From an uncultured Cytophagales bacterium (GTDB lineage Bacteria; Bacteroidota; Bacteroidia; Cytophagales; UBA9547): 39,190 bases of DNA. Where the stretch lies: assembly GCA_945957555.1 (NCBI GenBank), contig CAMFLX010000029.1, positions 1 through 39,190 on the forward strand. The letters are read 5' to 3'. Every line of letters starts with the position of its first letter. The first letter of the stretch is position 1. Positions 4,133 through 39,190 of the stretch are shown here, piece after piece. Both the position numbers and the translations under genes were made by a program. The notes below the pieces were generated by a model. That model saw only the letters and a program-made list of their open reading frames with translations. It had not been told where the DNA came from and searched no databases.

Positions 4133-5155
4133 CTACTGCAACACAATCTTGCGTACTTGCAGTGTGTTTCCTTGTGTGTCGTAGAGACGTACGTAGTATA
4201 TACCACTCCCGGTCCAAGCGCTAAGGTCTATTTCAGACTTCGCCTGTATTACCACGTTTTCAAAAACGCTCAAACCTGTACTGTTTACAACTTGTATTTT
4301 ATATCCACTTAATAGTGCGTAATTGCCATAATCGATAGTCAAATGATTATCGGATACTGGATTTGGGTAAATTTTAATATTATTCACATAGCTCAAATTA
4401 TCAATATTAGTTACTACAGTTTTAAGAACAAGCATATCTGTTTCACTAGAAGTTTGACTACAACTGGTTTCATTGTTGAGAGCACTTACCTCATTTGCTG
4501 TTAATGCCCTGTCGTAGATACGTACGTCATCGATAAGTCCATTGAAATTCCTACTGCTATATCCCGCTTCATCATCATTTCCAATTTTAAAATCAGAACC
4601 TACTACTAGAGAAAAACTATCTGAGGTTTGTTTGATTAGAACACCATCTATATATGTTTTGTATACAGAACCGTCATAGGTTAATACAACAAAGTGCCAA
4701 ATGTTATTCACCAGACTTGGAGTTGTGATAATGTGTTGATGAACCAAACCCGTACCTGCATTTAAATTGGTTATTAGTCTAGATTCTTTATCAATGGATA
4801 GCGTATTAGCGTTACAATAGCCTGTCCTAGAGGCTATAACCGTAATAAAATCTTGACTAGAATTACCCAGAGTTTTGATCCATGCGCATAATGACAACCG
4901 ACCTGAAGGTATTGATTTGACTGAGGTATTAATCCAGGAGGTTCCATCAAAAGAGTAAGCTTTATTAGCTGTTCCAAATCTATCTGTAGTCAAGGTTGGG
5001 GAACCAACAAATGTCCCATTCTTCCCATTACCGCTCTCATCCAATGCATTACCATTAAATGGGTAGTACGCCAAAAGGCCATTCATCAAAGTGCTTTGCG
5101 ACATGCCTACTAAAGAGGTCACGTAGAATCCTAAAAAGAGTAGTTTTTTAATCAT
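4133..5155 (-). CDS. Secreted LamG-domain protein with T9SS C-terminal sorting domain
   Basis: A signal peptide (MIKKLLFLGFYVTSLVGMSQ) is followed by a concanavalin-like LamG/Laminin_G_3 domain running from LLAYYPFNGNALDESG (residues 27-42) to LIDDVRIYDRAL (about 207-218). These two motifs are the hallmark ends of that domain, which usually binds carbohydrate or surface ligands. The C-terminal 80 residues start with IKIYPNP (260-266) and end in GIYYVRLYD...VRKIVLQ, a type A T9SS sorting domain. The protein is therefore probably carried across the outer membrane by the T9SS and released or anchored there. An upstream ATG at 5183-5185 would add ten residues; the chosen ATG begins a proper signal peptide. 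The ligand is unknown. It is read as a single gene between two hairpins with identical arms. Confidence 0.85.
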   Translation of the reverse strand: MIKKLLFLGFYVTSLVGMSQSTLMNGLLAYYPFNGNALDESGNGKNGTFVGSPTLTTDRFGTANKAYSFDGTSWINTSVKSIPSGRLSLCAWIKTLGNSSQDFITVIASRTGYCNANTLSIDKESRLITNLNAGTGLVHQHIITTPSLVNNIWHFVVLTYDGSVYKTYIDGVLIKQTSDSFSLVVGSDFKIGNDDEAGYSSRNFNGLIDDVRIYDRALTANEVSALNNETSCSQTSSETDMLVLKTVVTNIDNLSYVNNIKIYPNPVSDNHLTIDYGNYALLSGYKIQVVNSTGLSVFENVVIQAKSEIDLSAWTGSGIYYVRLYDTQGNTLQVRKIVLQ

Positions 5156-5333
5156 TTGTGTAGTTGTTTTAAATGTGATTATCATTATTGAATATTCCCA
5201 AAGCGATAATATACTGAATTAATTAAAGTCTATAGATGATCGGCTTTATGGCTGATTTTCAAATGCTCTGCAAATTAATAAAATTATTTTAACACACCAA
5301 AAGCCCCATGACACCAAAGTTAATAATAACGCC

Positions 5334-13492: not shown

Positions 13493-13522
13493 AACAAAAA
13501 CCTCCAATTGGAGGTTTTTGTT
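13493..13522. terminator. Perfect palindromic terminator after asnS
   Basis: A perfect inverted repeat with half-sites AACAAAAACCTCC and GGAGGTTTTTGTT around AATT starts 6 bp after the asnS stop. The T run on the right arm makes it work for the plus strand. Confidence 0.85.
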
Positions 13523-13862: not shown

Positions 13863-16800
13863 ATGAAAAAAGTATGTAAAACCCTGTTATCATTATGGTT
13901 CGTAGTGACCTGTTTCAACCACAGTTTTGCCCAGACCCCTACACTTTGGGGTACTAGTATCCAAGGAGGTATTGGCTCTGGCAATATCTTCTCGCACAAC
14001 ATTGGCACCAACGTAACCAATAATAGAACTAATTTTAAAAATTCAGAAACGCCAACTGCACGTCTTATTCTGAGCAAGGACCAAACTTGCATGTACGGAA
14101 TGACCTATTCCGGTGGCAATGGATTTGGTACGATTTTCAAATATGATCTGAATACGCGATTAGTAAACACTCTGTATGCCTTTAAAGGTGCTGCTTCTGG
14201 AGATGGTGCTAATCCCTTTGGCTCTGTGATCGAGGGCAGTGATGGCGCACTTTATGGTATGACCTACACAGGAGGTAAAAATGGATTTGGTATTGTTTTC
14301 AGATGGTTCAAGGGTAGCTATACAATTTTACATGATTTCAAAGGGGGAGCTGATGGTGCAAGTCCATATGGTTCACTCATAGAGATCAATGGAATCTTGT
14401 ATGGCATGACTTACGCAGGGGGCGATCCTGCTGGCGGAACCGTTGGAGTTGGGACAATTTTTGCATTGGCTATAGATGGATCTTCTTACAAAACATTTCA
14501 ATTCCCTACTGATGGCAGTAAAGGTCAGAACCCCTACGGAAGCCTAGTTGCAGGAGCAGACAACACCGTGTTGTATGGTATGACTTATTCTGGTTCTTCC
14601 AAAGTCGGACCGTCAGGGGTATTATTTACTTTTTCCACCAAAAGCCTTACTATAACAAGTTTACTACACGGCTTTGCTGGTGGCACCACAGATGGAGCTA
14701 ATCCATACGGAGACGTATTGTTCCTTTCGAGCAGCAATACTCTGCTTGGACTTACAAGTAGAGGGGGAGCCTCTAATTATGGAACCATATTTTCGTATGA
14801 TTTGACTAAAGGAAGCTATACCTTACGCTATAGTTTCAACAACAATGTAGGTGGGTATTCCCCTTATGGAACTCTTATGTGTCCTACAGCTGACAACACT
14901 TTTTATTACGGAACTACTACTTTTGGTGGTAGCGAAAGTGCAGGAACTCTTTTTAAGTGGAATCCAAGTAAAGGATATGTAACATTGACTAACTTCAATG
15001 GCACAAATGCAAAATACACCTATTTCACCAATCTATTAGAATATGTAGAACCGCTATGCAAGGGAATGTCGGTCCCCTCCACACCTACATCAATGAAGAC
15101 CTGTTATGGAACAGCCCTTACACTCGAAGCTAAAACCACCGCTACAGGAGCCAGCTTACTTTGGTATGGTACTGATACAACCAATATTGCTACACTCACT
15201 CCCAACATAGTGAGGGATACAACTTCTCCAGGGCTATATTACTATTATGTTTCACAAATCATGAATGGCTGCGAGAGCAAAAAAGTGGCTATACCAGTAT
15301 ATGTATATGGGCTCCCTGCTTTGCCAAATGTAACCACCCCAGTATATTACTGCCAAGGAGCTACAACCAGTCCATTGGTGGCAACATCCAATATAAAAGG
15401 CGGAGGAACGCTTAATTGGTATGGTATTAATGCTAATGGAGGCACCGCAAGCAACACTGCAACAATACCTTCATCTAGCACTTCTGGAACTACAAATTAT
15501 TACGTTTCACAAACCAACACGAGCACTGGCTGCGAAGGACCAAGAGCTAGCATAGCAGTTAATATTTATGCACTGCCAACTGCTCCAGGAGTTTCATCAG
15601 TAGGCTATTGTCTTAATGGAGCAGCAACAGTCCTAACTGCGGTACCTTCCACTTATACCATCCCGACGACAGGGGGACAATACCCATATACACTTAACTG
15701 GTATGGCACCAATGCTACTGGTGGCACCGCAAGTACTGCGGCACCAACTCCAAGCACCAGCACTGCTGGTACTACCACCTACTACGTATCACAGACGCAT
15801 CCCATCACAGGCTGTGAGGGACCTAGAGCTGCGCTAGTAGTAACTGTATTTCCTCTACCTGCAGCACCGACTGTTACAAGCCCAGTTTCTGCCTGTTTGG
15901 GAGGCACTGCACCAACACTAACAGCTACAGGAACATCGCTAAAATGGTACACCAGCTTAACAGGCACAGGAACCACTACACCACCGGTACCGTCCACAAA
16001 GACAGTAGGCACTACAACTTATTACGTTTCACAAACCGATGTCAATGGCTGTGAGGGTCCAAAAGCCAGTATTTCATTTGTTGTAAATGCAATACCAGCT
16101 GCGCCTGTATTTAGTCCACCAAGTGCTTCTATTTGTCAATTCAGTAAATCACCAGACCTCAACACATTCATTAAAAATTATAGTGGCACCCTTTATTGGT
16201 ATAACATTGCCACAGGAGGGAAGCCCCTTACCGGCACTCCTAAAATTGACTCATCAATAGTAACTACCACCACTTATTATCTTTCAAATGCCGTAAATGG
16301 TTGTGAAAGTTCAAGATCGTCTGTATCGGTAACGGTGAACATTACCCCACCAAACCCTGTAGCCCCAACCATTAAACCTGTATGTGCCGGCTCTAGTGAT
16401 ACGCTACGCAGTACAGATAAACCAGTGGGGTTGTTTTGGTGGTATGCCAGCCCAACCGGAGGCACTCCTAACTATAACCCATATTATACATCATTTAGTG
16501 CAAGCACTACCTATTATATCATGGACAGTACGAGTCTGGGCTGTAAGTCTGCTAGGGTTGCTGTTCCTATCCCGATAACTACACCAGCCACACCTTCCGT
16601 GAGCATAACCGCTTCTTCTACAAATGTGTGCGCTGGAACTTCTGTTACTTTTACTGCCGTGCCCGTAAATGGCGGCACATCTCCATACTACGCATGGTAT
16701 CTTAATGGCACACAAATCACATCCACGATTACTGGGACATTCACAACTACCCTCAGTAGCAATGCTACGGTATACGTTGTGATGACTTCTAATGCAAACT

Positions 16801-19800
16801 GTATTGCCCCTAAAACGGCAACATCTACAACCACATCGGTTACGGTAAACAGCTTACTCACCCCAGCCGTGAGTTTGACTTCGACCGCAACAACTATTTG
16901 TGCTGGAACATCCGTAACTTTTACGGCCACACCAACCAATGGGGGCTCGAGTCCGATTTATCAATGGCGTATTAATGGCATCAATGTTGGAGTCGCAAGC
17001 AGTACCAATACCTTCACCAGCACTACCTTGGCAAATAACGATGTAATTTCGGTATTAATGACTTCCAATGCGACCTGCGTTACCTCATCAACAGCTACTT
17101 CAGCAAGCAACATAACGATGAAAGTGAATCCTGTGGTGACACCTTCGGTTACATTGTCTTCAACTCAAACCACAATATGTGCTGGGAACACCGCCACTGT
17201 TACAGCTACAGCGACTAATGGAGGCACTGCTCCTCTTTATCAATGGAGAGTCAATGGTATCAATGTTGGGACCAACTCTGGGGTTAACACTTTTACAAGC
17301 ACGACTCTGGCAAATGGCGATGCTGTATCGGTAATTTTGACATCAAATGCTACATGCGCTACTCCGACTACAACCATCTCTAGTTCAAACATTACATTTA
17401 CGGTAAATCCAAAACTGAGTCCGAGTGTCATCGTCTCTACACCTGCGACTACAGTATGTCCTGGTTCCTCTGTGACTTTCACTGCAACACCCACGAACGG
17501 TGGCACGACACCTTCTTATCAATGGTACCTGAACAGCATACCAGTGACGGCGACCACAGGAAGTGTGTATACTACTATAGTGAGCGGAGGGGCTAGTGTA
17601 TATGCCATACTAACTTCTAATGCCACATGTTTGAGTAGCACTACAGCAACTTCCAATACTACTACGGTAACTACTGGCTCGAATCTAGTACCTACCATAT
17701 CAATATCTACACCTGCGACAACAGTATGTGCTGGCAACGCCACTACATTTACAGCTAGTGTGGCTAATGGGGGCAGTGCGCCATCCTTCCAGTGGAAAGT
17801 CAATGGAACAAATGTTGGGACGGGTGGCAATAGTTTTACAAGCACAACACTCCTTACAAACGATAAAGTATCTGCTGTCCTTACATCTAATGAAACCTGT
17901 GTTACGACAGCTACTGCAACTTCTAATGTCATTACAATGACCGTTAATAATTCACCCAACATAAGCAGCAGCGTTACCGCGACTAGCCCTGTATGTGATG
18001 GTACTGCAAGTATTGTAACTATCAATGCAGCCAGCGGGGTTACCTATATGCTCAAAGACCAGAACGGCAACAATCTGGGATCTGGCATAGCTACTGGCAA
18101 TGGCGATTTTAACATTAATACCATTAACCTTTTGGCACCTTCCATGCCAGTAAAGGATACCATAAACATAACAGCTTCCATCCCAGGATGTAATATTGTA
18201 AATCTAAACACGAAACCTGTTGTTGTGGTAAATCCAGCGCAAGCAGCTGGCGCTACAGTAACAGCTACATCACCCATCTGTTCTGGATCACCAAGTATCA
18301 TTTCTATAGCTGCGACCCCCGGAATAACTTATACAGTTAGAGACCAAAACAATACCGTCATCGGAAGTGCGCTTGCTAATGCAAGTGGGATTCTCAACAT
18401 AACAACTGGTACATTAAATGCATCTATAGGACCGACGATATACACCTTGACAGTTACAGCTTCGATAGCAGGATGTAACAATGTTGTATTAACTACAAAA
18501 CCTACAGTACAAGTAAATCCGCTCCAAACAGCAACTGCAACTGTTACAGCGAGTTCTCCTATATGTTCTGGAAATACAAGCATAATAACTGTAGCCGCCA
18601 TCAATGGCATTACCTACACTGTAAAGGATCAAGTTAATAATATTTTAGGGACAGCAACTGCCACCAGTACTGGCAATTTGAATATCAATACAAGCATATT
18701 GACAGCTTCTGGAGCTGTAATCAAAGACACATTAAACATCACGGCGAGTATTGTGGGCTGTAACAATGTACCACTTACTACGAAACCAATTGTCACTATT
18801 AATCCCGTACAAAACGCAGCCACTTCTGTAGTAGCCACTTCTCCAATATGTAGCGGCAGTTCAAGCGTAGTCACAATTGCTGCAACAAGTGGCATCACAT
18901 ACACTGTCAGAGATCAGAGCAATGCGATATTGGGGACAGCTACTGCAACAGCCAATGGAAACATCAATATTACTACCAGTGCTTTATCGGCTCTAACTGC
19001 CCCCACCGTGTATACGCTGAAGATCACCGCTTCCGCCGCTGGTTGCAGTGACGTCATTTTAACGAATACGCCAAATGTCATGGTAAATCCACTACAAAAC
19101 CCTTCCGCATCTGTAACGGCAATTTCACCTGTGTGCCTCAACAGCAGCAGTACGGTAACTATTGCTGCTACTAACGGAATCTCTTATACAGTAAGAGACC
19201 AAAGCAACACAATACTGGGTACAAAAACAGCAACAGCTACGGGCAATCTTGCCATCACAACTTCGGCACTAACCAGTACAAGTCCTTACACGCTAAGCAT
19301 AATGGCTTCAATACCTGGCTGTGCTAATGTTGCCTTGACCACAACACCAGTAGTAACCACCAATGCCAGCATTGTACCATCTGTAGCAATTACTACCCCT
19401 ACTACTACAATTTGCGCAGGAGCCTTGGCAACATTTACGGCAAATCCTACCAATGGGGGTACGACTCCTGGATATCAATGGAGGATCAATGGGGCAAATG
19501 TGGTGGGGGCCACTGGCAGTACTTTTTCTAGTAGTACGCTTACCAACAATGATGCAATATCCGTCGTAATGACCTCAGTAGCTGCTTGTGCATCACCGGC
19601 CACAGCAACATCAACAAATGTTACCGTAGTGGTTAATAACACGATTACTCCATCTGTTAATATTACCAGTAGTGCATCTGGAGCAATCTGTTCTGGCACT
19701 TCTGTAACATTCACAGCGACAACCACCAATGGTGGTACCGCCCCAGGGATTCAATGGTTCATTAACAATACTCCATCAGGAACCAACAGCGCTGTATTTA

Positions 19801-22800
19801 CCACCACCGCTCTCAAAAACAGTGATACAGTTTCTGCGGTTTTAACTTCAAACGCCAATTGTCTCGGTACCGGCACCGCAAAATCGAATAAAATTGTCAC
19901 TGCTGTAAATCCGAATTCAACTCCGACTTTAATCATTACCACACCATATCCAACTATTTGCGCTGGCACTAATGTCACTTTTACTGCGACTTATACTAAC
20001 GGTGGCAATAACCCTAGCATACAATGGAAAGTGAATGGCACTAATACTGGCATTGCCTCTTCTTCCAATACTTTCTCGAGTTCTAGTTTTGTAAATGGGG
20101 ATGTGGTATCTGCTGTTCTAACATCAAATGCAAGCTGTCTTACAAGTACAACTGTAAATTCATCGTATACCATAACGATGACTGTAAACCCCAATTTAAC
20201 ACCAACAGTAGGAATAACTACCGCATCAACAAGTATTTGTAAAGGTACGGACGCTGCATTTACAGCAACAGCTATAAACGCAGGATCATCACCAACTTAC
20301 CTTTGGAAAATAAATGGCAGCAATAAAGGCACCTATACAAGTTCGAACACATTCAGCAGCAATGCACTAGCAAACAACGATATCGTATCGGTACTCGTCA
20401 AATCTAATGCTACTTGTATCGCTATAGACTCTGCGCTCTCTAATGGAATACCAATTTCAATAAATACTGCTCCAAACATATCAACACCACCAACAGCGTT
20501 AACCGCCTGTGAAGGAAGTACAGCCACCTTCTCGGTTGTCGCCAATGGTGCAGGACTGAGTTACCAATGGAAGGAAAACGGAAAAGATATTGCAGGCGCC
20601 AATAGCTCTAGTTTCAAAATCAATGCAGTAGCAAGCTCTCAAGACAACAACTTATATAGTGTATCTATCAGTGGAACATGTGCCCCAAGTGTAGTAAGTA
20701 ATGCCGCACTCCTTACTGTAAAAACCTTACCCAAGATCTTGACACACCCCTTGGACAATACCACATGTACAGGAGGAAGTGTAAACTTGAGCATTGCCGC
20801 AACAGGAACGGGAATCTCGTATCAGTGGCAAGAAAATGGCGTAAACATTAATGATGGCGGTCTTTATTCTGGCACACAAAACGATACGCTGACTTTAACA
20901 GGCGTAAATAGCGCTCAAAACAATAAAAAATATACAGCTATCATCAGTAATGGTTGTACACCTAATGCGCTGAGCAATCCAGCAACACTTACTGTTGGAA
21001 CAAATGTGATCTCATCCATCAGCATTACCGCTTCTGACACGGTGGTCTGCAAAGGAACTATGGTAACGTTTAAAGCCAACTCTTCTAATGGAGGCTCAAA
21101 TCCAAGCTTCCAATGGCTTCGCAACAATACCGCAATCGCAGATGCGACCAGTTCTACATTTACGTCTGACTCATTAAGCAATGCCGATCTGATATCTTGC
21201 CAGATGACATCCAGCAACTCCTGTGTAACGACCAAAACAGTAAGCTCCAAGGCCATATTCATGGATATCAACAGTACCCTACCTACGATCACCAGTATCA
21301 TTAATGGCAATATCTGCAATACTGGAAAAGCAAATATTTCAGCAATACCTTCCGCAGGTATTATCAAATGGTTCAATACAAGCACTGGCGGTCTGGCTTT
21401 AGATACAGGGCAAACATTTACCACCCCAGTCATCTCAAGCAATGCTCTCTACTATGCAGAAGCTGAAAATAAAGGTTGCATCTCTCAGTCCAGAACTCCT
21501 GTAAAAGCCAATGTAAGCACGCAAGCAGTGGTATCAGCTGGAGCGGACCAAACCGTATGTGAATCCTCCAAAACCATATCACTAGTAGGGACATCAAATA
21601 CAGGTGCTGTACTGTGGACAGGTACAGGTGCAGGCTCTATCAACAAAACAGATTCCCTTTCTGCTTCTTATAACATATTAGCCACAGATGTCACTGCTGG
21701 AAAAATCACATTCATTGCAACTTCTGACAAAAACGGATCTTGCTTGCCAGTATCAGATACGATTATTGTCAAAATCGCTTCAGCAGGCTCAGGTGTAGGA
21801 TACATAGTGCCACTTGACTCCGCGATCATTGCAAATATGATTATCAACAACTTCCCAAGCACGCAAACAGTGTATAAAAGCAATGACCCAAGCACCTGGA
21901 AGGGAATAAAAACGGCATGTGGACATGTTACAGAAATCAGATTGCCTAACAAAAACTTAAACGGCACTCTTTCTGAACTAGAAAACTTATCACAATTGGA
22001 GGCACTAGATCTGTCAAGTAACTCATTAGATTCTATTGAAACAGATTTAAGCACGATTTCAAATACGATCAAGACATTAAATCTGTCTAAAAACACAATC
22101 CAATACAAAAGAAGCATTGTTTTTGATAGTTACAGCGACCTTGATTCTGTAAACTTCTCATATAATGCTTTCGCAGATAGTCTCTACTTTATCCATGACG
22201 CCCCATTCTATTTGGATTTGAGTCACAATGCGATTCTACACTTTGGAGTTTCAAAAAATGGCGCAAAGGATCTTAAAACAAAGTTCCTGAATCTTTCAGC
22301 CAATCAACTAAACACTTCAAAAATCTCCAACATTGATAGCTTAATACATTTGAAACATTTAGATATTTCTTTCAACCAGTTCAAAGATTCCTTACCGAAT
22401 TTGGGAACTCTGGTCGAATTGCAATACCTAAACGCGTCAAACAATAATTTAAGCAATAGTATCCCAAATTTAGCCGTGATGACTAATCTAGATAGTCTCT
22501 ACTTGGCCCATAACTCATTAAACGCTGGATTTGCAAATTTAAAATCCAACGCTGGCCTTGTTGCTGTTGACTTAGGAAACAATAAGTTTAAAGGCGATCC
22601 CTCGGTAGACTTAAGCGCTTTAAGTCAACTTCAATACTTTGCCATCGATTCAAACAATGTAGATGGTACAGAAAAGAATTCAGGCGTTACAAGTCTACCA
22701 GTACTTCCTCTAAATAAAGGTTTAAAACTGCTAGTACAGGACAATCACTTAGATTTTATCGATCTGGAGCCTTATGCTACTTTATTCAATAAAGTAAGTG

Positions 22801-23897
22801 CTTCCTACGCCCCACAGTATGATAGTATTGATAAGCATTACACCATAAGACCTGCTGAAGGCAGTTTCTTGAGTATGACGACCACACTCACCGGTAACAA
22901 CACTCAATACCAATGGCAAAAATACAGTACGGCATCACAAACGTATGAAAATCTAAATATACAAAGTGCCACAGAGCAAACGTTTAAGAAACTTTTTGCA
23001 AATTCGGATACTGGAAAATATAGCGTAGTTGTCAGCAACACCGATTTCCCTGGTTTAAAATTCTACAGAAGACCTGTCTCTGTAGAGGCTTGCGATTTCT
23101 CATACAATACAAATTTCTTTGTAAAAAAACCTGCGCTTGACAAATGCTTTGGTATTGACACTCTCTTCGTTCAGTTTACAACAAAAGATAATAAGCCTGT
23201 AACTGATTTTTCAAACATTTGGTACTTTAACGACAGGAATGTAATCAGTGAATATCGAAAATCAATTCCTATTCATGTTAGTGGTATATATTCATTCTTG
23301 GCATTCGACTCTACAACAGGATGTTCGATCTTTTCTAAAGACACCATAATGGTCAAAACTACCAGCAAGATAAATCCTGCACTTGAAATTAAATTTAACA
23401 GTCAAGATTCATCTGTTTTTATCACTAATATCTCAACTGACTTTCAAGGATCAGCATTACAGTGGCTCATTAACGGGCTTCCTATTGCCAATGCAACAGG
23501 TAAAAGTCTAAGAATCTACTACAATGGCACCTATCAGCTCTTGTCTATCAAAACAGACAGCTGCTCTGCCATTTCAGAACCACTAAGAATCACCGCTTTC
23601 GGCAAAACTTTTGAGAGAAAAGACCATGCATTCAATACTCAAGGTCAAGTGATCTTAAGCCAAGACCAAGAACTGAATGTGTTCCCAAGCCCAGCTCAAA
23701 ACGAATTCAATATTGAAGGCACACAATCAGGCAGTATGATCCACATTACAAATCCTCAGGGTGTTCTCGTCTCGTCTATTACAGCTACGTCCAAAACGGC
23801 AACCATAGATGCTAGTGACTTCCCTTCAGGACTCTACACGATTCAGGTAACAACAGATGATGTGCCGAGATTCCTTAAAATTATGATTGTGAAATAA
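13863..23897 (+). CDS. Giant secreted mosaic protein: kelch-like, Ig-like, LRR and T9SS sorting domains
   Basis: This 3344-residue protein is assembled from repeats. After a signal peptide ending SFAQ come six copies of an LYGMTYSGG...GTIF motif (about 78-385, TIGR03803-like). Then come six Ig_7/CHU_C-type modules with WYG...GGT and TTYYVSQT...GCE (about 399-905). Next are five modules with TICAGTSVTFTA...YQW...SNATC (909-1365), and five of another type with SPICSG...TYTVRDQ...GC (1366-1836). Four more of the earlier type follow (1837-2203), then two I-set-like domains (2204-2381), one further Ig-like module, two CHU-type modules, and an LRR block (about 2686-2960). More beta domains lead to a T9SS tail starting LNVFPSPA (3271-3344). 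Most modules carry a cysteine pair, presumably a disulfide. It is probably exported by the T9SS and acts as an adhesin or surface binder; the ligand is unknown. Confidence 0.9.
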   Translation: MKKVCKTLLSLWFVVTCFNHSFAQTPTLWGTSIQGGIGSGNIFSHNIGTNVTNNRTNFKNSETPTARLILSKDQTCMYGMTYSGGNGFGTIFKYDLNTRLVNTLYAFKGAASGDGANPFGSVIEGSDGALYGMTYTGGKNGFGIVFRWFKGSYTILHDFKGGADGASPYGSLIEINGILYGMTYAGGDPAGGTVGVGTIFALAIDGSSYKTFQFPTDGSKGQNPYGSLVAGADNTVLYGMTYSGSSKVGPSGVLFTFSTKSLTITSLLHGFAGGTTDGANPYGDVLFLSSSNTLLGLTSRGGASNYGTIFSYDLTKGSYTLRYSFNNNVGGYSPYGTLMCPTADNTFYYGTTTFGGSESAGTLFKWNPSKGYVTLTNFNGTNAKYTYFTNLLEYVEPLCKGMSVPSTPTSMKTCYGTALTLEAKTTATGASLLWYGTDTTNIATLTPNIVRDTTSPGLYYYYVSQIMNGCESKKVAIPVYVYGLPALPNVTTPVYYCQGATTSPLVATSNIKGGGTLNWYGINANGGTASNTATIPSSSTSGTTNYYVSQTNTSTGCEGPRASIAVNIYALPTAPGVSSVGYCLNGAATVLTAVPSTYTIPTTGGQYPYTLNWYGTNATGGTASTAAPTPSTSTAGTTTYYVSQTHPITGCEGPRAALVVTVFPLPAAPTVTSPVSACLGGTAPTLTATGTSLKWYTSLTGTGTTTPPVPSTKTVGTTTYYVSQTDVNGCEGPKASISFVVNAIPAAPVFSPPSASICQFSKSPDLNTFIKNYSGTLYWYNIATGGKPLTGTPKIDSSIVTTTTYYLSNAVNGCESSRSSVSVTVNITPPNPVAPTIKPVCAGSSDTLRSTDKPVGLFWWYASPTGGTPNYNPYYTSFSASTTYYIMDSTSLGCKSARVAVPIPITTPATPSVSITASSTNVCAGTSVTFTAVPVNGGTSPYYAWYLNGTQITSTITGTFTTTLSSNATVYVVMTSNANCIAPKTATSTTTSVTVNSLLTPAVSLTSTATTICAGTSVTFTATPTNGGSSPIYQWRINGINVGVASSTNTFTSTTLANNDVISVLMTSNATCVTSSTATSASNITMKVNPVVTPSVTLSSTQTTICAGNTATVTATATNGGTAPLYQWRVNGINVGTNSGVNTFTSTTLANGDAVSVILTSNATCATPTTTISSSNITFTVNPKLSPSVIVSTPATTVCPGSSVTFTATPTNGGTTPSYQWYLNSIPVTATTGSVYTTIVSGGASVYAILTSNATCLSSTTATSNTTTVTTGSNLVPTISISTPATTVCAGNATTFTASVANGGSAPSFQWKVNGTNVGTGGNSFTSTTLLTNDKVSAVLTSNETCVTTATATSNVITMTVNNSPNISSSVTATSPVCDGTASIVTINAASGVTYMLKDQNGNNLGSGIATGNGDFNINTINLLAPSMPVKDTINITASIPGCNIVNLNTKPVVVVNPAQAAGATVTATSPICSGSPSIISIAATPGITYTVRDQNNTVIGSALANASGILNITTGTLNASIGPTIYTLTVTASIAGCNNVVLTTKPTVQVNPLQTATATVTASSPICSGNTSIITVAAINGITYTVKDQVNNILGTATATSTGNLNINTSILTASGAVIKDTLNITASIVGCNNVPLTTKPIVTINPVQNAATSVVATSPICSGSSSVVTIAATSGITYTVRDQSNAILGTATATANGNINITTSALSALTAPTVYTLKITASAAGCSDVILTNTPNVMVNPLQNPSASVTAISPVCLNSSSTVTIAATNGISYTVRDQSNTILGTKTATATGNLAITTSALTSTSPYTLSIMASIPGCANVALTTTPVVTTNASIVPSVAITTPTTTICAGALATFTANPTNGGTTPGYQWRINGANVVGATGSTFSSSTLTNNDAISVVMTSVAACASPATATSTNVTVVVNNTITPSVNITSSASGAICSGTSVTFTATTTNGGTAPGIQWFINNTPSGTNSAVFTTTALKNSDTVSAVLTSNANCLGTGTAKSNKIVTAVNPNSTPTLIITTPYPTICAGTNVTFTATYTNGGNNPSIQWKVNGTNTGIASSSNTFSSSSFVNGDVVSAVLTSNASCLTSTTVNSSYTITMTVNPNLTPTVGITTASTSICKGTDAAFTATAINAGSSPTYLWKINGSNKGTYTSSNTFSSNALANNDIVSVLVKSNATCIAIDSALSNGIPISINTAPNISTPPTALTACEGSTATFSVVANGAGLSYQWKENGKDIAGANSSSFKINAVASSQDNNLYSVSISGTCAPSVVSNAALLTVKTLPKILTHPLDNTTCTGGSVNLSIAATGTGISYQWQENGVNINDGGLYSGTQNDTLTLTGVNSAQNNKKYTAIISNGCTPNALSNPATLTVGTNVISSISITASDTVVCKGTMVTFKANSSNGGSNPSFQWLRNNTAIADATSSTFTSDSLSNADLISCQMTSSNSCVTTKTVSSKAIFMDINSTLPTITSIINGNICNTGKANISAIPSAGIIKWFNTSTGGLALDTGQTFTTPVISSNALYYAEAENKGCISQSRTPVKANVSTQAVVSAGADQTVCESSKTISLVGTSNTGAVLWTGTGAGSINKTDSLSASYNILATDVTAGKITFIATSDKNGSCLPVSDTIIVKIASAGSGVGYIVPLDSAIIANMIINNFPSTQTVYKSNDPSTWKGIKTACGHVTEIRLPNKNLNGTLSELENLSQLEALDLSSNSLDSIETDLSTISNTIKTLNLSKNTIQYKRSIVFDSYSDLDSVNFSYNAFADSLYFIHDAPFYLDLSHNAILHFGVSKNGAKDLKTKFLNLSANQLNTSKISNIDSLIHLKHLDISFNQFKDSLPNLGTLVELQYLNASNNNLSNSIPNLAVMTNLDSLYLAHNSLNAGFANLKSNAGLVAVDLGNNKFKGDPSVDLSALSQLQYFAIDSNNVDGTEKNSGVTSLPVLPLNKGLKLLVQDNHLDFIDLEPYATLFNKVSASYAPQYDSIDKHYTIRPAEGSFLSMTTTLTGNNTQYQWQKYSTASQTYENLNIQSATEQTFKKLFANSDTGKYSVVVSNTDFPGLKFYRRPVSVEACDFSYNTNFFVKKPALDKCFGIDTLFVQFTTKDNKPVTDFSNIWYFNDRNVISEYRKSIPIHVSGIYSFLAFDSTTGCSIFSKDTIMVKTTSKINPALEIKFNSQDSSVFITNISTDFQGSALQWLINGLPIANATGKSLRIYYNGTYQLLSIKTDSCSAISEPLRITAFGKTFERKDHAFNTQGQVILSQDQELNVFPSPAQNEFNIEGTQSGSMIHITNPQGVLVSSITATSKTATIDASDFPSGLYTIQVTTDDVPRFLKIMIVK

Positions 23898-24048: not shown

Positions 24049-24996
24049 ATGAGAAACAATATACTTTTGGTCCTCGCGACCCTATTATCCACAGTTGTTT
24101 ACAGTCAAAAAAAAGTAGCATCACTTCCCTCTTATGATAATCTTATCAAAGGTAGCAAGCCTGTTGTTGAAAAGTTGGCAAATGGCTCCATTAACTGGAC
24201 TCAGCAGTTTATAGAAGCCAAAGGACAATCCGTAATAGATACGGTGCGTTTCAAAAACAAAGCCCAAGCTAAGGCGATGGCAACAAGAGGTGCTATAGTA
24301 GAGGCTCAGAGAAATCTGTTAGAGATCATTAAAGGTGTAAATATCGTAGGAGAAACTACGGTTGAAGACATGATCACAACTAGTGATAAAATCCAAAGCA
24401 GAGTTGAAGGTGTTGTGAAAGGTGCTACACAAGTAGGTGATGCAACCGTAAAAGATGGACTAGTGCAAGTAACTATGCACATAGCACTATACAGTGCTGA
24501 CGGCCTTGCTCCTGTTGTAGCAGACTCTATGGAGAAAATAATTGCAAGAGAAACCAAAAGCGCAACCCCAACAACTACAACTACAGAAAGCTCAACCACT
24601 AGCGTAGATTCCACAAAAAAAACCACACCTCCCGTGGCGAATACCTCCACCACTGGTACAGGAAGCGATGCAGAGATGAAGCCTCTCGTGTTTAATCTTA
24701 ACGGAAAAAAAATAGATCCTTCTCTTTTCCCTGTTATAACTGACTCTACTGGCAATCTGGTATTGGACTTATCTAAGTTTTACGACCCTAAAAAAGGAAA
24801 ATTCCCTCAATATCTACAATTGGGCAAAGACATTGCCAAAGCGGCTAACTTCAAAAAAGGTGTAGAAGTTATTGATATCATCCAAAACTCCAACGGAAAG
24901 TTCGTAGTGAGTGATAAGATTAAGAAGAAAATCAATTGGGACAAAATCGCAACAGCTGCTAAAAAAATAGGCAAATTTGCAATGCTATTCTTATAA
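24049..24996 (+). CDS. Periplasmic LPP20-like domain protein with Ser/Thr-rich linker
   Basis: The 315-residue protein has a signal peptide (MRNNILLVLATLLSTVVYSQ) without a lipobox. Residues about 55-150 (FKNKAQAKAMATRGAIVEAQ...GVNIVGETTVEDM...VQVTMHIAL) follow the LPP20/FlgT_N pattern. That pattern is an Ala-rich helix, a Gly-Val turn, a T-V-E segment, and a closing beta hairpin with DGLVQV. A low-complexity Thr/Ser linker follows at about 172-205. A C-terminal domain includes NGKKIDPSLFPVITD and a basic end. The function is unknown. It starts a pair with the next gene, 23 bp away, whose N-terminal domain has the same pattern. The family assignment is from motif pattern, not a search. Confidence 0.65.
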   Translation: MRNNILLVLATLLSTVVYSQKKVASLPSYDNLIKGSKPVVEKLANGSINWTQQFIEAKGQSVIDTVRFKNKAQAKAMATRGAIVEAQRNLLEIIKGVNIVGETTVEDMITTSDKIQSRVEGVVKGATQVGDATVKDGLVQVTMHIALYSADGLAPVVADSMEKIIARETKSATPTTTTTESSTTSVDSTKKTTPPVANTSTTGTGSDAEMKPLVFNLNGKKIDPSLFPVITDSTGNLVLDLSKFYDPKKGKFPQYLQLGKDIAKAANFKKGVEVIDIIQNSNGKFVVSDKIKKKINWDKIATAAKKIGKFAMLFL

Positions 24997-25019
24997 GCCA
25001 TTCCATCTCTTATTTCATT

Positions 25020-26987
25020 ATGAAGAAACTTTTTACATTATTACTCCTCAGCTTTGCTATGCTGGCGAGCAATGCGCAAGAAATCAAAACAGTTGAGGCC
25101 AAAGGCCTAGGTGTTGGAAGAAATGATGCGCTTCAGGATGCGCTCAGAAATGCAGTATCGCAAGCTGTCGGGGTGGCTCTTTCGTCTCAAACTTCCGTCG
25201 AAAACTTTATGGTCATCAGCGATGCAATTGCGACCAATACTCAAGGCTATATCAAATCCTACACAATTGTTAGTGAAAAGCAAAATGGAGAGAACTATGA
25301 AGTTGCCGTAAAAGCAGACGTAACCACCACCCCACTTAAAGCAGACTTCAACCTGCTGGCAAAAGGAGTTGGCGGTGTTCGTTTCTTGGCCATGTACGAT
25401 TTAAGGAGTATTAATAACTCCGAAAAAAGTGATTATGACTTTGTATTGGACCAAATCAATAAATATTTCGCCTCTAAAAAATACAGATACATTGACAGAA
25501 CACGATTTGCCTCACTACAAAGAGAAACTTTGTTAATGCTGGGTGATCAAGACACCTCTGGAGTATCTTATGCACAGCAACTAGCACTGCTTGCGGACGC
25601 TCAATTTCTCATATTGATCAAAAATATCCGTAAAGAAACGATCAGTGAGCAGTTTGATACCAGAATTAAAAGTCGCGTCATCGTGGATGCCATTACTCTG
25701 GACAACTGCACAGGAGAAGGCTTAGGCTCTATAAGCTTACAAGGTAATTGGCAAGAGGGTAATAACAATGTAAACCAACCTGGCATTGCCTCTGCCCTTC
25801 AAAGTGACATGGATTCGCTTCTCAACACCTTTAGTGCCTATATTGGAGGGTGGATAAACAACGGGACGCCTTTTGAAATTAGGTTTTACAGTAGCGGTAC
25901 TTATAGAGATTTGAGAGACTTGCGTACAAAACTCAAACAAGACCCTGCTTTTGGAGGAGATTTGGAGATCGTATCGGCAAGTGAATTCACAAAAATCAAC
26001 TGTACTTACAAAAAGAAAGCCGATGAAATGGCAGACAAGATATTGGACTATGCAGACCAAGTCCCTACCTTAAAAGACAAAAAACTAGATGTAAAGCTCA
26101 TTTATGGTCGACAAATTTCTTTCGCTCCTCAAGGTACTGAAATCAAGAAAACAAAAGTAGCTACTGTACTCAAAGAGCATGATGCCAAAAGCCAGCCGAC
26201 AACAGAACAGAAAGAAAAACCAAAGGAAGAAACAACACAAACCTCTACCTCGACAACTTCTAACTCAGATGAAAAAAAGCTACAAGGAGGCTTTACAATC
26301 TTTACTGAAGCTGGAGAGAAGTTTTGGCTTATCGTGAATGGAAGTAAAATCAATGAGAACCCTGCTGCTAAAGTTGTTTTAGATAAATGTAACGAAGATG
26401 GGGCCAAAGTAAAAATCCTCTTTGCTGACAGCAAACTGAAACCCATTGACGACAAACTCACGGTATTCAGCTTTATGACAGGTGAAGTGTACAAAAACAC
26501 TTATGTTATTAAAAAGAAAAAGGATAAATATTCGATCAAAATGGTTACAACAACAGTCATTGGTCGCAGATTTAAAGATGAGAACAACAATGGTAAAAAT
26601 GACTATATAGAAGAGGAAGAGAACTTTAAAGCTGGGACAAAAACCAATACTACGTCCTCGGAAAATTCAACTACGATCCAAACTCTAAATTGCACCACTA
26701 CAATGCCTGATGCAGATTTTCAAGAAGCCTTGGCTCAACTAAAGTCTGCATCAATGGACCGAAGCTTTACAAAAGTTGCCTGTAACATCATGAACAATAA
26801 CTGCGTGAGCCTAAATCAGGCAAAAAACATAATAGCCTGTGCATCATTTGACGACGACAAATTACAGTTGGCCCAAATAGTATACACCAATTGTACCGAA
26901 AAGAACAAGTACTATCTATTGAATGACCAATTTACATTTCCTTCGACCAAGGAAAAATTCAATAGCTTTTTATTAAGTAAAAAGTAG
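25020..26987 (+). CDS. Periplasmic FlgT_N/LPP20-like protein with CsgG/FlgT-like middle region
   Basis: The 655-residue protein has a signal peptide ending LASNAQ. Residues 20-115 form an LPP20/FlgT_N-like domain (VEAKGLGVGRNDALQDALRN, QAVGVALSSQTSVENF, ENYEVAVKADV). The next 250 residues (VRFLAMYDLRS, YIDRTRFASLQRETL, LLADAQFLILIKNI) resemble the middle domain of FlgT and the nucleotide-like fold of CsgG-type proteins. A Lys/Thr/Gln-rich linker at about 380-415 leads to a DUF-like tail; FKDENNNGKNDYIEEEE could bind calcium. A C-terminal part (about 560-655) resembles a DUF4476-like helical domain (LKSASMDRSFTKVA...LNQAKNIIACASFDDDKLQLAQI...YTNCTEKNKYY). It lies 23 bp after the preceding gene and ends at a strong terminator. 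The role is unknown. Confidence 0.65.
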   Translation: MKKLFTLLLLSFAMLASNAQEIKTVEAKGLGVGRNDALQDALRNAVSQAVGVALSSQTSVENFMVISDAIATNTQGYIKSYTIVSEKQNGENYEVAVKADVTTTPLKADFNLLAKGVGGVRFLAMYDLRSINNSEKSDYDFVLDQINKYFASKKYRYIDRTRFASLQRETLLMLGDQDTSGVSYAQQLALLADAQFLILIKNIRKETISEQFDTRIKSRVIVDAITLDNCTGEGLGSISLQGNWQEGNNNVNQPGIASALQSDMDSLLNTFSAYIGGWINNGTPFEIRFYSSGTYRDLRDLRTKLKQDPAFGGDLEIVSASEFTKINCTYKKKADEMADKILDYADQVPTLKDKKLDVKLIYGRQISFAPQGTEIKKTKVATVLKEHDAKSQPTTEQKEKPKEETTQTSTSTTSNSDEKKLQGGFTIFTEAGEKFWLIVNGSKINENPAAKVVLDKCNEDGAKVKILFADSKLKPIDDKLTVFSFMTGEVYKNTYVIKKKKDKYSIKMVTTTVIGRRFKDENNNGKNDYIEEEENFKAGTKTNTTSSENSTTIQTLNCTTTMPDADFQEALAQLKSASMDRSFTKVACNIMNNNCVSLNQAKNIIACASFDDDKLQLAQIVYTNCTEKNKYYLLNDQFTFPSTKEKFNSFLLSKK

Positions 26988-37534: not shown

Positions 37535-38179
37535 TCATGTCCATTTTTTGAGTTTTGGGTGATTTTTATTGTGCTCTAACAATTCCAGTATCTCCTTTTT
37601 CATTAGTCCAACGATACTCTTTCCCAATAAAAAAACAGAAGTGGAGCCTAATTCTGGATGAGTATAATCAGTTCCCTTAAATTTTTTTTCAGAATTGTCA
37701 TTTGCATTTATGATTAAATGTTGATGAATGTTTGAATCAAAACCTCCAGAAACTTTTTTATTAATATATTCTTTCCAATTTTCGGGAGGTGGTGCTGCTT
37801 CGATATTGAAGAAATGGAAGTAGAGCCAAACCTCAAAAGAGGGGTTGCTGACTACAACATTAAATCGTTTCCGTCCACATTCAGTTAAGAAATCATGTAA
37901 CACCCATCTATCAGTGTCGACAACAAACCATACTTCGTCAATCTTCTCTTTTTTCCTTTCCCTTAAAACCTCTATCGCTTGACTAAGGATTCTAATTGGA
38001 GCAGACTGACTTTCATTTGGAGGAAACACTTCGATTTTCAGTCGAGATGATTTGGCCTCAAAGAATTCGAAATAATCTTTTTCCCTATTCTTGCCCTCAC
38101 AAAATACGAAGATCAACTTTGCATCTCTATGAGGAAGAAAATCTTTATATTTTATTCCAATTTTATTAGGGTCCAGCAT
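37535..38179 (-). CDS. rloB: RloB-like TOPRIM-type protein of an RloA/RloB (AbiL-like) defence pair
   Basis: The 214-residue protein carries the RloB pattern. LIFVFCEGKNREKDYFEFF (residues 22-40) holds the conserved first Glu of a TOPRIM-like fold. VWFVVDTDRW (83-92) has the paired Asp D88/D90, and SNPSFEVWLYFHF (111-123) is the family signature. TOPRIM folds bind divalent metal and cut or manipulate nucleic acid, so this is the presumed effector. It starts 5 bp after the ATPase gene on the same strand. RloA and RloB were first noted as genes linked to type I restriction loci, and the lactococcal abortive-infection system AbiL has the same ATPase plus RloB pairing. The direct role in defence is inferred from family and arrangement. 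Confidence 0.85.
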   Translation of the reverse strand: MLDPNKIGIKYKDFLPHRDAKLIFVFCEGKNREKDYFEFFEAKSSRLKIEVFPPNESQSAPIRILSQAIEVLRERKKEKIDEVWFVVDTDRWVLHDFLTECGRKRFNVVVSNPSFEVWLYFHFFNIEAAPPPENWKEYINKKVSGGFDSNIHQHLIINANDNSEKKFKGTDYTHPELGSTSVFLLGKSIVGLMKKEILELLEHNKNHPKLKKWT

Positions 38180-38184
38180 ACTTA

Positions 38185-39190
38185 TTAGTTTAAAAGAGTT
38201 TTTATATCGCCCAAAAAAGGAATGGCGCCATATCTTCCTTGTAAATATCCAGATTGTATATCCTTTGTATGATGAATTGGATATGAGCTTAATGGATAGA
38301 TTTCGGTAGAGTAATCATCCTTCTTTTCCGCAAACCAAATTTCGTCTTCCCTAAAAAGTTTTAGGTCTAGCAGATTTGATTCATGCGTAGTGAAGATCAA
38401 TTGTCCTCCAATTCCGTTGGTTTCAGAAAAGTATTTTAAGATATTTTTAATCATAACTGGATGGAGACTACGCTCTATTTCATCGATGATTATTACTTTT
38501 TCAGTTTCCATCATACTCAAAAACATGGGAGCAAGTTCTATCAATCGTTTGCTACCATCGGACAGCTCCTCTATTTTAAAATATTCAACTATATTTAATT
38601 TGTTAGTTTGTGTAATAGAGACTTGCCCTTCATAATACTTATTATGGACGATATCCTTAATAATCTTATCCTGTTCACTGGTTTGAACAACCGAAAATTT
38701 ACCCTCAGTGTTATTGATAATCTTATCAAAAATATCTTTCGGAAGCTGGCTTTTAAGATTCTCCGCTGATATTTCATTATTTATAAAATTAACATTTGAA
38801 ATTCCAAGGTTGAAACTTTCTATGAGTGAAACCATTTTTTTTTCAAAAAGCAAGTCATCGTTAGAATCTTTCATCGCGATCTTCCTCAAGTGAAAACCCG
38901 TAAAGTCAGGTTTTGATGAAGGGAATAATACAATTACATGAGAATCGAACCACTCAAATACCTTTTTGAGTGGTTTTGCAAATTCATCATTTCCTTTATA
39001 ATCCTGTCCATTTCCAATAAAATACAAGAAAGAGATTTCGTCTCTCAAGATCGCACTGAAAAATTCTGCCTGATCTTTATATTGATCATCAAGGAAAGAG
39101 ACTTTGCTCTTTTTTGCCCCTTTTTTCCTCAAAAATAGGTTAAGATAATTTTCATTCACTTTTTGAAAAAGACCTTCCTCTATGATCTGG
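38185..39190 (-). CDS. rloA: RloA-type AAA/ABC-like ATPase, 5' end cut off by the window
   Basis: The reading frame has no stop between its first visible GTG (39157-39159, read as MNENYLNLFL) and the window edge. The last 10 codons read QIIEEGLFQK, so it clearly continues leftward in the protein. The visible 335 residues contain the C-terminal half of an OLD/AAA_15-type ATPase. These are a signature-like LSDGSKRLIEL, Walker B VIIIDEIERSLHP, and the TTHESNLLDLKLF switch, ending in GRYGAIPFLGD. No Walker A is present, which must lie upstream of the window. RloA is thought to control its RloB partner, whose gene starts 5 bp after this stop. Confidence 0.85.
   Translation of the reverse strand, partial: QIIEEGLFQKVNENYLNLFLRKKGAKKSKVSFLDDQYKDQAEFFSAILRDEISFLYFIGNGQDYKGNDEFAKPLKKVFEWFDSHVIVLFPSSKPDFTGFHLRKIAMKDSNDDLLFEKKMVSLIESFNLGISNVNFINNEISAENLKSQLPKDIFDKIINNTEGKFSVVQTSEQDKIIKDIVHNKYYEGQVSITQTNKLNIVEYFKIEELSDGSKRLIELAPMFLSMMETEKVIIIDEIERSLHPVMIKNILKYFSETNGIGGQLIFTTHESNLLDLKLFREDEIWFAEKKDDYSTEIYPLSSYPIHHTKDIQSGYLQGRYGAIPFLGDIKTLLN

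Follow-up and report, generated by a model that had tools for sequence, protein, structure and literature searches.

A giant modular protein from an uncultured Cytophagales bacterium: a probable T9SS-exported binding protein with old Ig-like modules in shared blocks

We consider it quite likely that the gene at positions 13863-23897 (+) of the window, the whole 39,190-nt stretch of DNA analyzed from an uncultured Cytophagales bacterium, encodes a T9SS-exported binding protein with a stalk and a head, that this gene shares blocks with other genes, and that its modules have diverged in place. As originally predicted, the gene encodes 3344 residues and contains a leucine-rich repeat (LRR) block (21780-22790) and a T9SS tail. 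It is a single intact ORF, with an ATG start and without internal stop.

Architecture of the giant protein

The domain string begins with a signal-peptide-like start and a GloVer head, followed by six Ig_7 modules, five family A modules, five family B modules, four more modules of family A, two I-set/Ig_3 modules and the last family A module, A10. After A10 come another Ig_7 module, an unassigned Cys-paired module, the LRR block, a weakly Ig-like region and the type A tail. The features are listed below.

13493-13522, +: terminator-like hairpin 3' of asnS (13-pair stem; consensus scan)
13863-23897, +: whole protein, 3344-aa ORF (ORF and translation)
13863-13931, +: putative signal peptide, residues 1-23 (MKKVCKTLLSLWFVVTCFNHSFA), read by eye from the sequence
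13932-15059, +: head of six GloVer (TIGR03803) repeats, probable beta-propeller (TIGR03803 profile; low-confidence model)
15060-16586, +: Ig_7 modules S1-S6 (PF19081; Cys pairs; GhpA match, E 2.1e-75)
16587-17951, +: family A Ig-like modules A1-A5 (Cys pairs; T4 Hoc match, E 5.9e-8)
17952-19370, +: family B modules B1-B5, predicted beta-sandwich (model pLDDT 88; Ig-like folds in PDB)
19371-20465, +: family A modules A6-A9 (Cys pairs)
20466-21005, +: two I-set/Ig_3 modules (Pfam Ig_3 and I-set; matches to phage Ig-like proteins)
21006-21272, +: family A module A10 (groups in the tree with modules of other genes of its own genome)
21273-21515, +: Ig_7 module S7 (PF19081, E 1.1e-18)
21516-21779, +: Cys-paired module, no family above the curated cut-off (Cys pair; profile search)
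21780-22790, +: leucine-rich repeat block (PF13855, E 3.2e-10, and others)
22791-23670, +: region between the LRRs and the tail (weak Ig-like signals only; shared, with the LRRs, with gene C110)
23679-23888, +: T9SS type A sorting domain (TIGR04183/PF18962; profile matches, residues 3273-3342)

A Cys pair was found at matching places in every A, B and Ig_7 module, and the I-set/Ig_3 modules are Cys-paired too. The predicted block string of five A, five B, four A, two I-set and one A module was recovered exactly, at the predicted positions and with a Cys pair in each module. The earlier module list, sound in these blocks, had missed eight modules, namely the six Ig_7 modules at 15060-16586 and the two modules at 21273-21779. 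PF19081 (Ig_7) matched the whole protein with 245.6 bits in 13 stretches; when single modules were searched, S3 and S7 scored over the cut-off and A2 and B4 below it. Family A matched the Ig-like protein Hoc of phage T4 (E 5.9e-8), and the I-set/Ig_3 modules also matched phage Ig-like proteins. For the LRRs, the models XopAC and XopAE were set aside because their matches were far below the cut-off.

Family B received no Pfam assignment above the cut-off. A model built from the alignment of the five copies in the window was a confident beta-sandwich (pLDDT 88.2), which resembled Ig-like domains in the PDB, including domains of biofilm-associated proteins, with Z values of 8-9 over 80-90 residues. 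Several GhpA domains were among the matches (Z 8.0-8.5, 18-25% identity). As middling Z values are common for the Ig-like fold, we claim the fold class only, and family B is predicted to be an Ig-like beta-sandwich. Merging A and B into a single sequence family was rejected, since profile comparison gave a probability of 2.3%.

The head had been described as kelch-like. No Pfam family matched it at E 1, and hence there was no kelch profile match; the repeats instead belong to GloVer, with TIGR03803 matching in six stretches (E 2.7e-43; 145.5 bits against a curated cut-off of 44). The kelch family is thus ruled out, while the fold class implied by the name is retained: beta-propellers ranked on top among the Foldseek matches of a low-confidence model from the single sequence (pLDDT 54.5, pTM 0.60), suggesting that the GloVer head probably folds as a beta-propeller. 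Two other proteins of the same genome, C21 and C274, likewise combine GloVer repeats with a C-terminal sorting tail; however, they are only about 850-930 aa long and lack the A/B string.

Age of the modules and blocks shared with other genes

The modules were predicted to be alike in protein and divergent at synonymous sites, and this is what we observed. On average, the A modules share 47% aa identity (pS 0.76, pN 0.36), and the B modules share 55% (pS 0.81, pN 0.32). At sites with the same residue, codons differed in 0.632 of cases in family A, against 0.665 after synonymous codons were shuffled within the module family (z -3.1), and in 0.695 of cases in family B, against 0.670 (1.4 sd above the null). 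The B modules are fully saturated and without DNA memory, and the A modules keep a slight residue of likeness. Module DNA is thus far from nearly identical. Recent amplification or gene conversion was rejected, since codon identity equals or nearly equals that after shuffling; two genes with younger duplicates (L014 and L029) do retain memory in the same test. There was also no sign of active synonymous diversification against recombination, as the B modules exceed the null by only 1.4 sd. The module alignment proposed earlier put dN/dS between modules well below 1 (dN about 0.3-0.5, dS above about 1-2), a value that is only bounded because synonymous sites are saturated or nearly so. These results support an old, protein-constrained module amplification, as judged from codon comparisons.

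Error in assembling the repeats had been named as a possible objection. The longest exact direct repeat in the giant gene is 19 nt, no more than expected by chance (14-22 nt in the synonymous-shuffle null), and a collapsed repeat is therefore unlikely and excluded as far as sequence can tell.

The amplification was originally placed within this gene. Codon saturation agrees with its proposed age, but in-gene amplification is not the whole history, as blocks are shared with other genes. One of them, C7 (L011, 3149 aa), carries a string of two B, four A and seven B modules, followed by more distant B-like modules. It is collinear with the giant gene over a stretch of A2-A5 plus B (62% identity over the best stretch), and in both genes an A block is followed by B; C7 differs from the giant gene in its head and in its type B (TIGR04131/CHU_C) tail, and it lacks an LRR match. 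When the four A modules of C7 were compared with the ten of the giant gene, the collinear pairing with A2-A5 ranked first of 5040 after double-centering and second before it, and other consecutive A runs reached at most 14, against 132 for A2-A5. In the simplest reading, the A string would predate the sharing of the block between the two genes. The relative order of events is thus readable here, the A block having apparently been a string before it was shared. No positional pairing was found between the B modules of the two genes, which fits either independent expansion or an erased signal; the module tree, made from 90-column alignments and with most forks left open, does not decide. Although pS among them is 0.67-0.73, modules B6-B8 of C7 (locus L011, C7:12500-27000) show 83-87% likeness at the protein level, indicating strong protein constraint without DNA homogenization.

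A second gene, C110 (L012, 2138 aa), shares the LRR block, the post-LRR region and the type A tail with the giant protein at 41% identity; it differs in being mostly LRR, without an A or B module string. In addition, the tree places A10 with modules from two of the genome's other genes (support 97/87). Because the A block recurs in C7, the LRR block plus tail in C110, and kin of A10 in two genes, the giant gene is a mosaic whose units recur in other places of the same genome, a feature recognized here for the first time. The genome also holds a still larger relative, a 7024-aa open frame with an A-type module at C12:22666-22917.

Outside this genome, A-type strings occur commonly across the order. 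Close B modules were absent from the overlapping samples searched (390 genomes of the order and 395 of the phylum), where a single distant match (E 5e-13) came from a genome of the same family. Close B modules may thus be limited to two genes of this genome, although this restriction may reflect sampling, with close relatives perhaps unsampled, because the search samples included no other genome of the genus. No full-length orthologue of the giant gene was found among the relatives searched. A conserved position next to asnS was rejected, since in eight relatives the sequence flanking asnS, covered for at most about 1.5 kb, gave no match to the head or to the LRR-tail part. Two genomes from another genus of the family, which represent sister species, keep a related six-module A array 1:1 in order. 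Each of the six modules most resembles its positional partner (diagonal values 0.42-0.71); identity reaches 65% across 1184 residues, and synonymous sites are nearly saturated. Among the available tests of stability this one is the best, although it concerns a related gene and not the giant gene itself. Together, the 1:1 array and the prior A string argue that strings of this kind are not variable repeats but static components in a toolkit that is shuffled.

Export and proposed function

The giant gene lies behind asnS and is probably its own transcription unit, since a terminator-like hairpin follows asnS. The two genes downstream (24049-26987) give weak LPP20 signals, the second also with FlgT_N and DUF4476, and they may be co-transcribed with the giant gene, the gap being about 150 nt. 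Elsewhere in the window (37535-39159, -), an AbiLii/RloB-like protein stands beside an AbiLi-like AAA ATPase (PADLOC E 8.9e-22 and 1.2e-46), probably an AbiL-type anti-phage pair.

The N-terminus (residues 1-23) resembles a signal peptide on reading by eye. The tail (residues 3273-3342) matched TIGR04183 with 29.4 bits (cut-off 23) and PF18962 with 34.9 bits (cut-off 27), and the genome encodes the T9SS translocon protein SprA (2245 bits). By homology, these matches identify the giant protein as predicted type A cargo of the T9SS that this genome encodes. The same genome has at least 150 type A tails over all contigs (150 matches scored), a very large T9SS cargo set. The protein may be located at the surface, although in gliding bacteria type A cargo can either stay on the cell or leave it (PMC5445135).

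With its putative signal peptide and type A C-terminal domain, the protein would be exported through the type IX secretion system (T9SS) to the cell surface or the medium. About 25 Cys-paired Ig-like or beta-sandwich modules would form a long, disulfide-stabilized stalk, with the GloVer beta-propeller at its N-terminal end held at a distance from the cell and the LRR block adjoining the tail; we infer the geometry and orientation of this stalk from the module order. At about 4 nm per module, a monomeric stalk would measure roughly 100 nm. A polysaccharide or a cell-surface ligand could then be bound by the propeller, by the LRRs or by exposed faces of the modules, and the protein would act in attachment. 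We infer ligand binding, anchoring and a role in adhesion. The gene itself would have grown by old module duplication and by multi-module blocks shared with other genes of the genome, and each module would since have diverged where it stands, with selection maintaining the Ig core (Cys pair, Trp, Gly).

We regard it as rather unlikely that the giant protein is instead a released, soluble polymer-binding scaffold, whose tail is cleaved and whose propeller and Ig modules bind plant or microbial polysaccharide near secreted hydrolases. Type A cargo frequently leaves the cell instead of being displayed, which speaks for such a scaffold and against display. The very many type A cargos of the genome also speak for it, among them the protein at 4133-5185 (-) of the window, which has a laminin-G/ConA-like domain and a T9SS type A tail. 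However, profile searches of the giant protein gave no carbohydrate-binding or catalytic family. A long LRR-bearing stalk would also be more useful on an attached protein, which counts against a released scaffold. The stalk-and-head protein remains our preferred reading.

Comparison with known giant T9SS proteins

Among solved structures, GhpA, the grappling-hook protein of Aureispira sp. CCB-QB1 (PDB 9flp and others), comes closest to the Ig_7 block by a wide margin (E 2.1e-75). It is likewise a giant T9SS-secreted protein of the Bacteroidota with long Ig_7-like strings, and the grappling hooks have been described as heptameric, built from a T9SS-secreted protein (PMC11205867). This likeness, together with the several GhpA domains among the fold-space neighbors of the B modules, would be expected if the stalk oligomerized into hook-like fibers that hold other bacteria. 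The two proteins nevertheless differ in several respects. The GhpA chain has 5898 residues against 3344 here, and GhpA has no match to the GloVer head. The giant protein ends in a type A tail, whereas the C-terminal kind of GhpA is found in C7, whose type B tail matches GhpA residues 5789-5885. Moreover, Ig_7-like modules are widespread in relatives, and likeness need not mean shared function. A capture device like GhpA is thus very unlikely, and one could speak of a hook role only loosely, in that modules are shared. We consider equally improbable the broader proposal that family B represents an Ig-like subfamily specific to its lineage and that the giant protein and C7 form a GhpA-like multi-subunit capture fiber, with heads and tails exchanged by block shuffling; if true, such a fiber would occur in a genus not known for it.

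The gliding adhesins SprB and RemA of Flavobacterium johnsoniae are similar to the giant protein in being large, modular and T9SS-exported, features that would suit an adhesin of the SprB type moving on a track. This role is disfavored because SprB is a type B substrate anchored and carried by SprF (PMC12635249), whereas the giant protein has a type A tail and no match to the type B sorting domain TIGR04131. The two downstream neighbors are not SprF-like either, matching LPP20, FlgT_N and DUF4476 models instead, and we give such a role hardly any credence. Taken together, the giant protein, read as a stalk-and-head binding protein, would be a well-preserved but ordinary example of the known giant adhesin-like kind, with no new mechanism.
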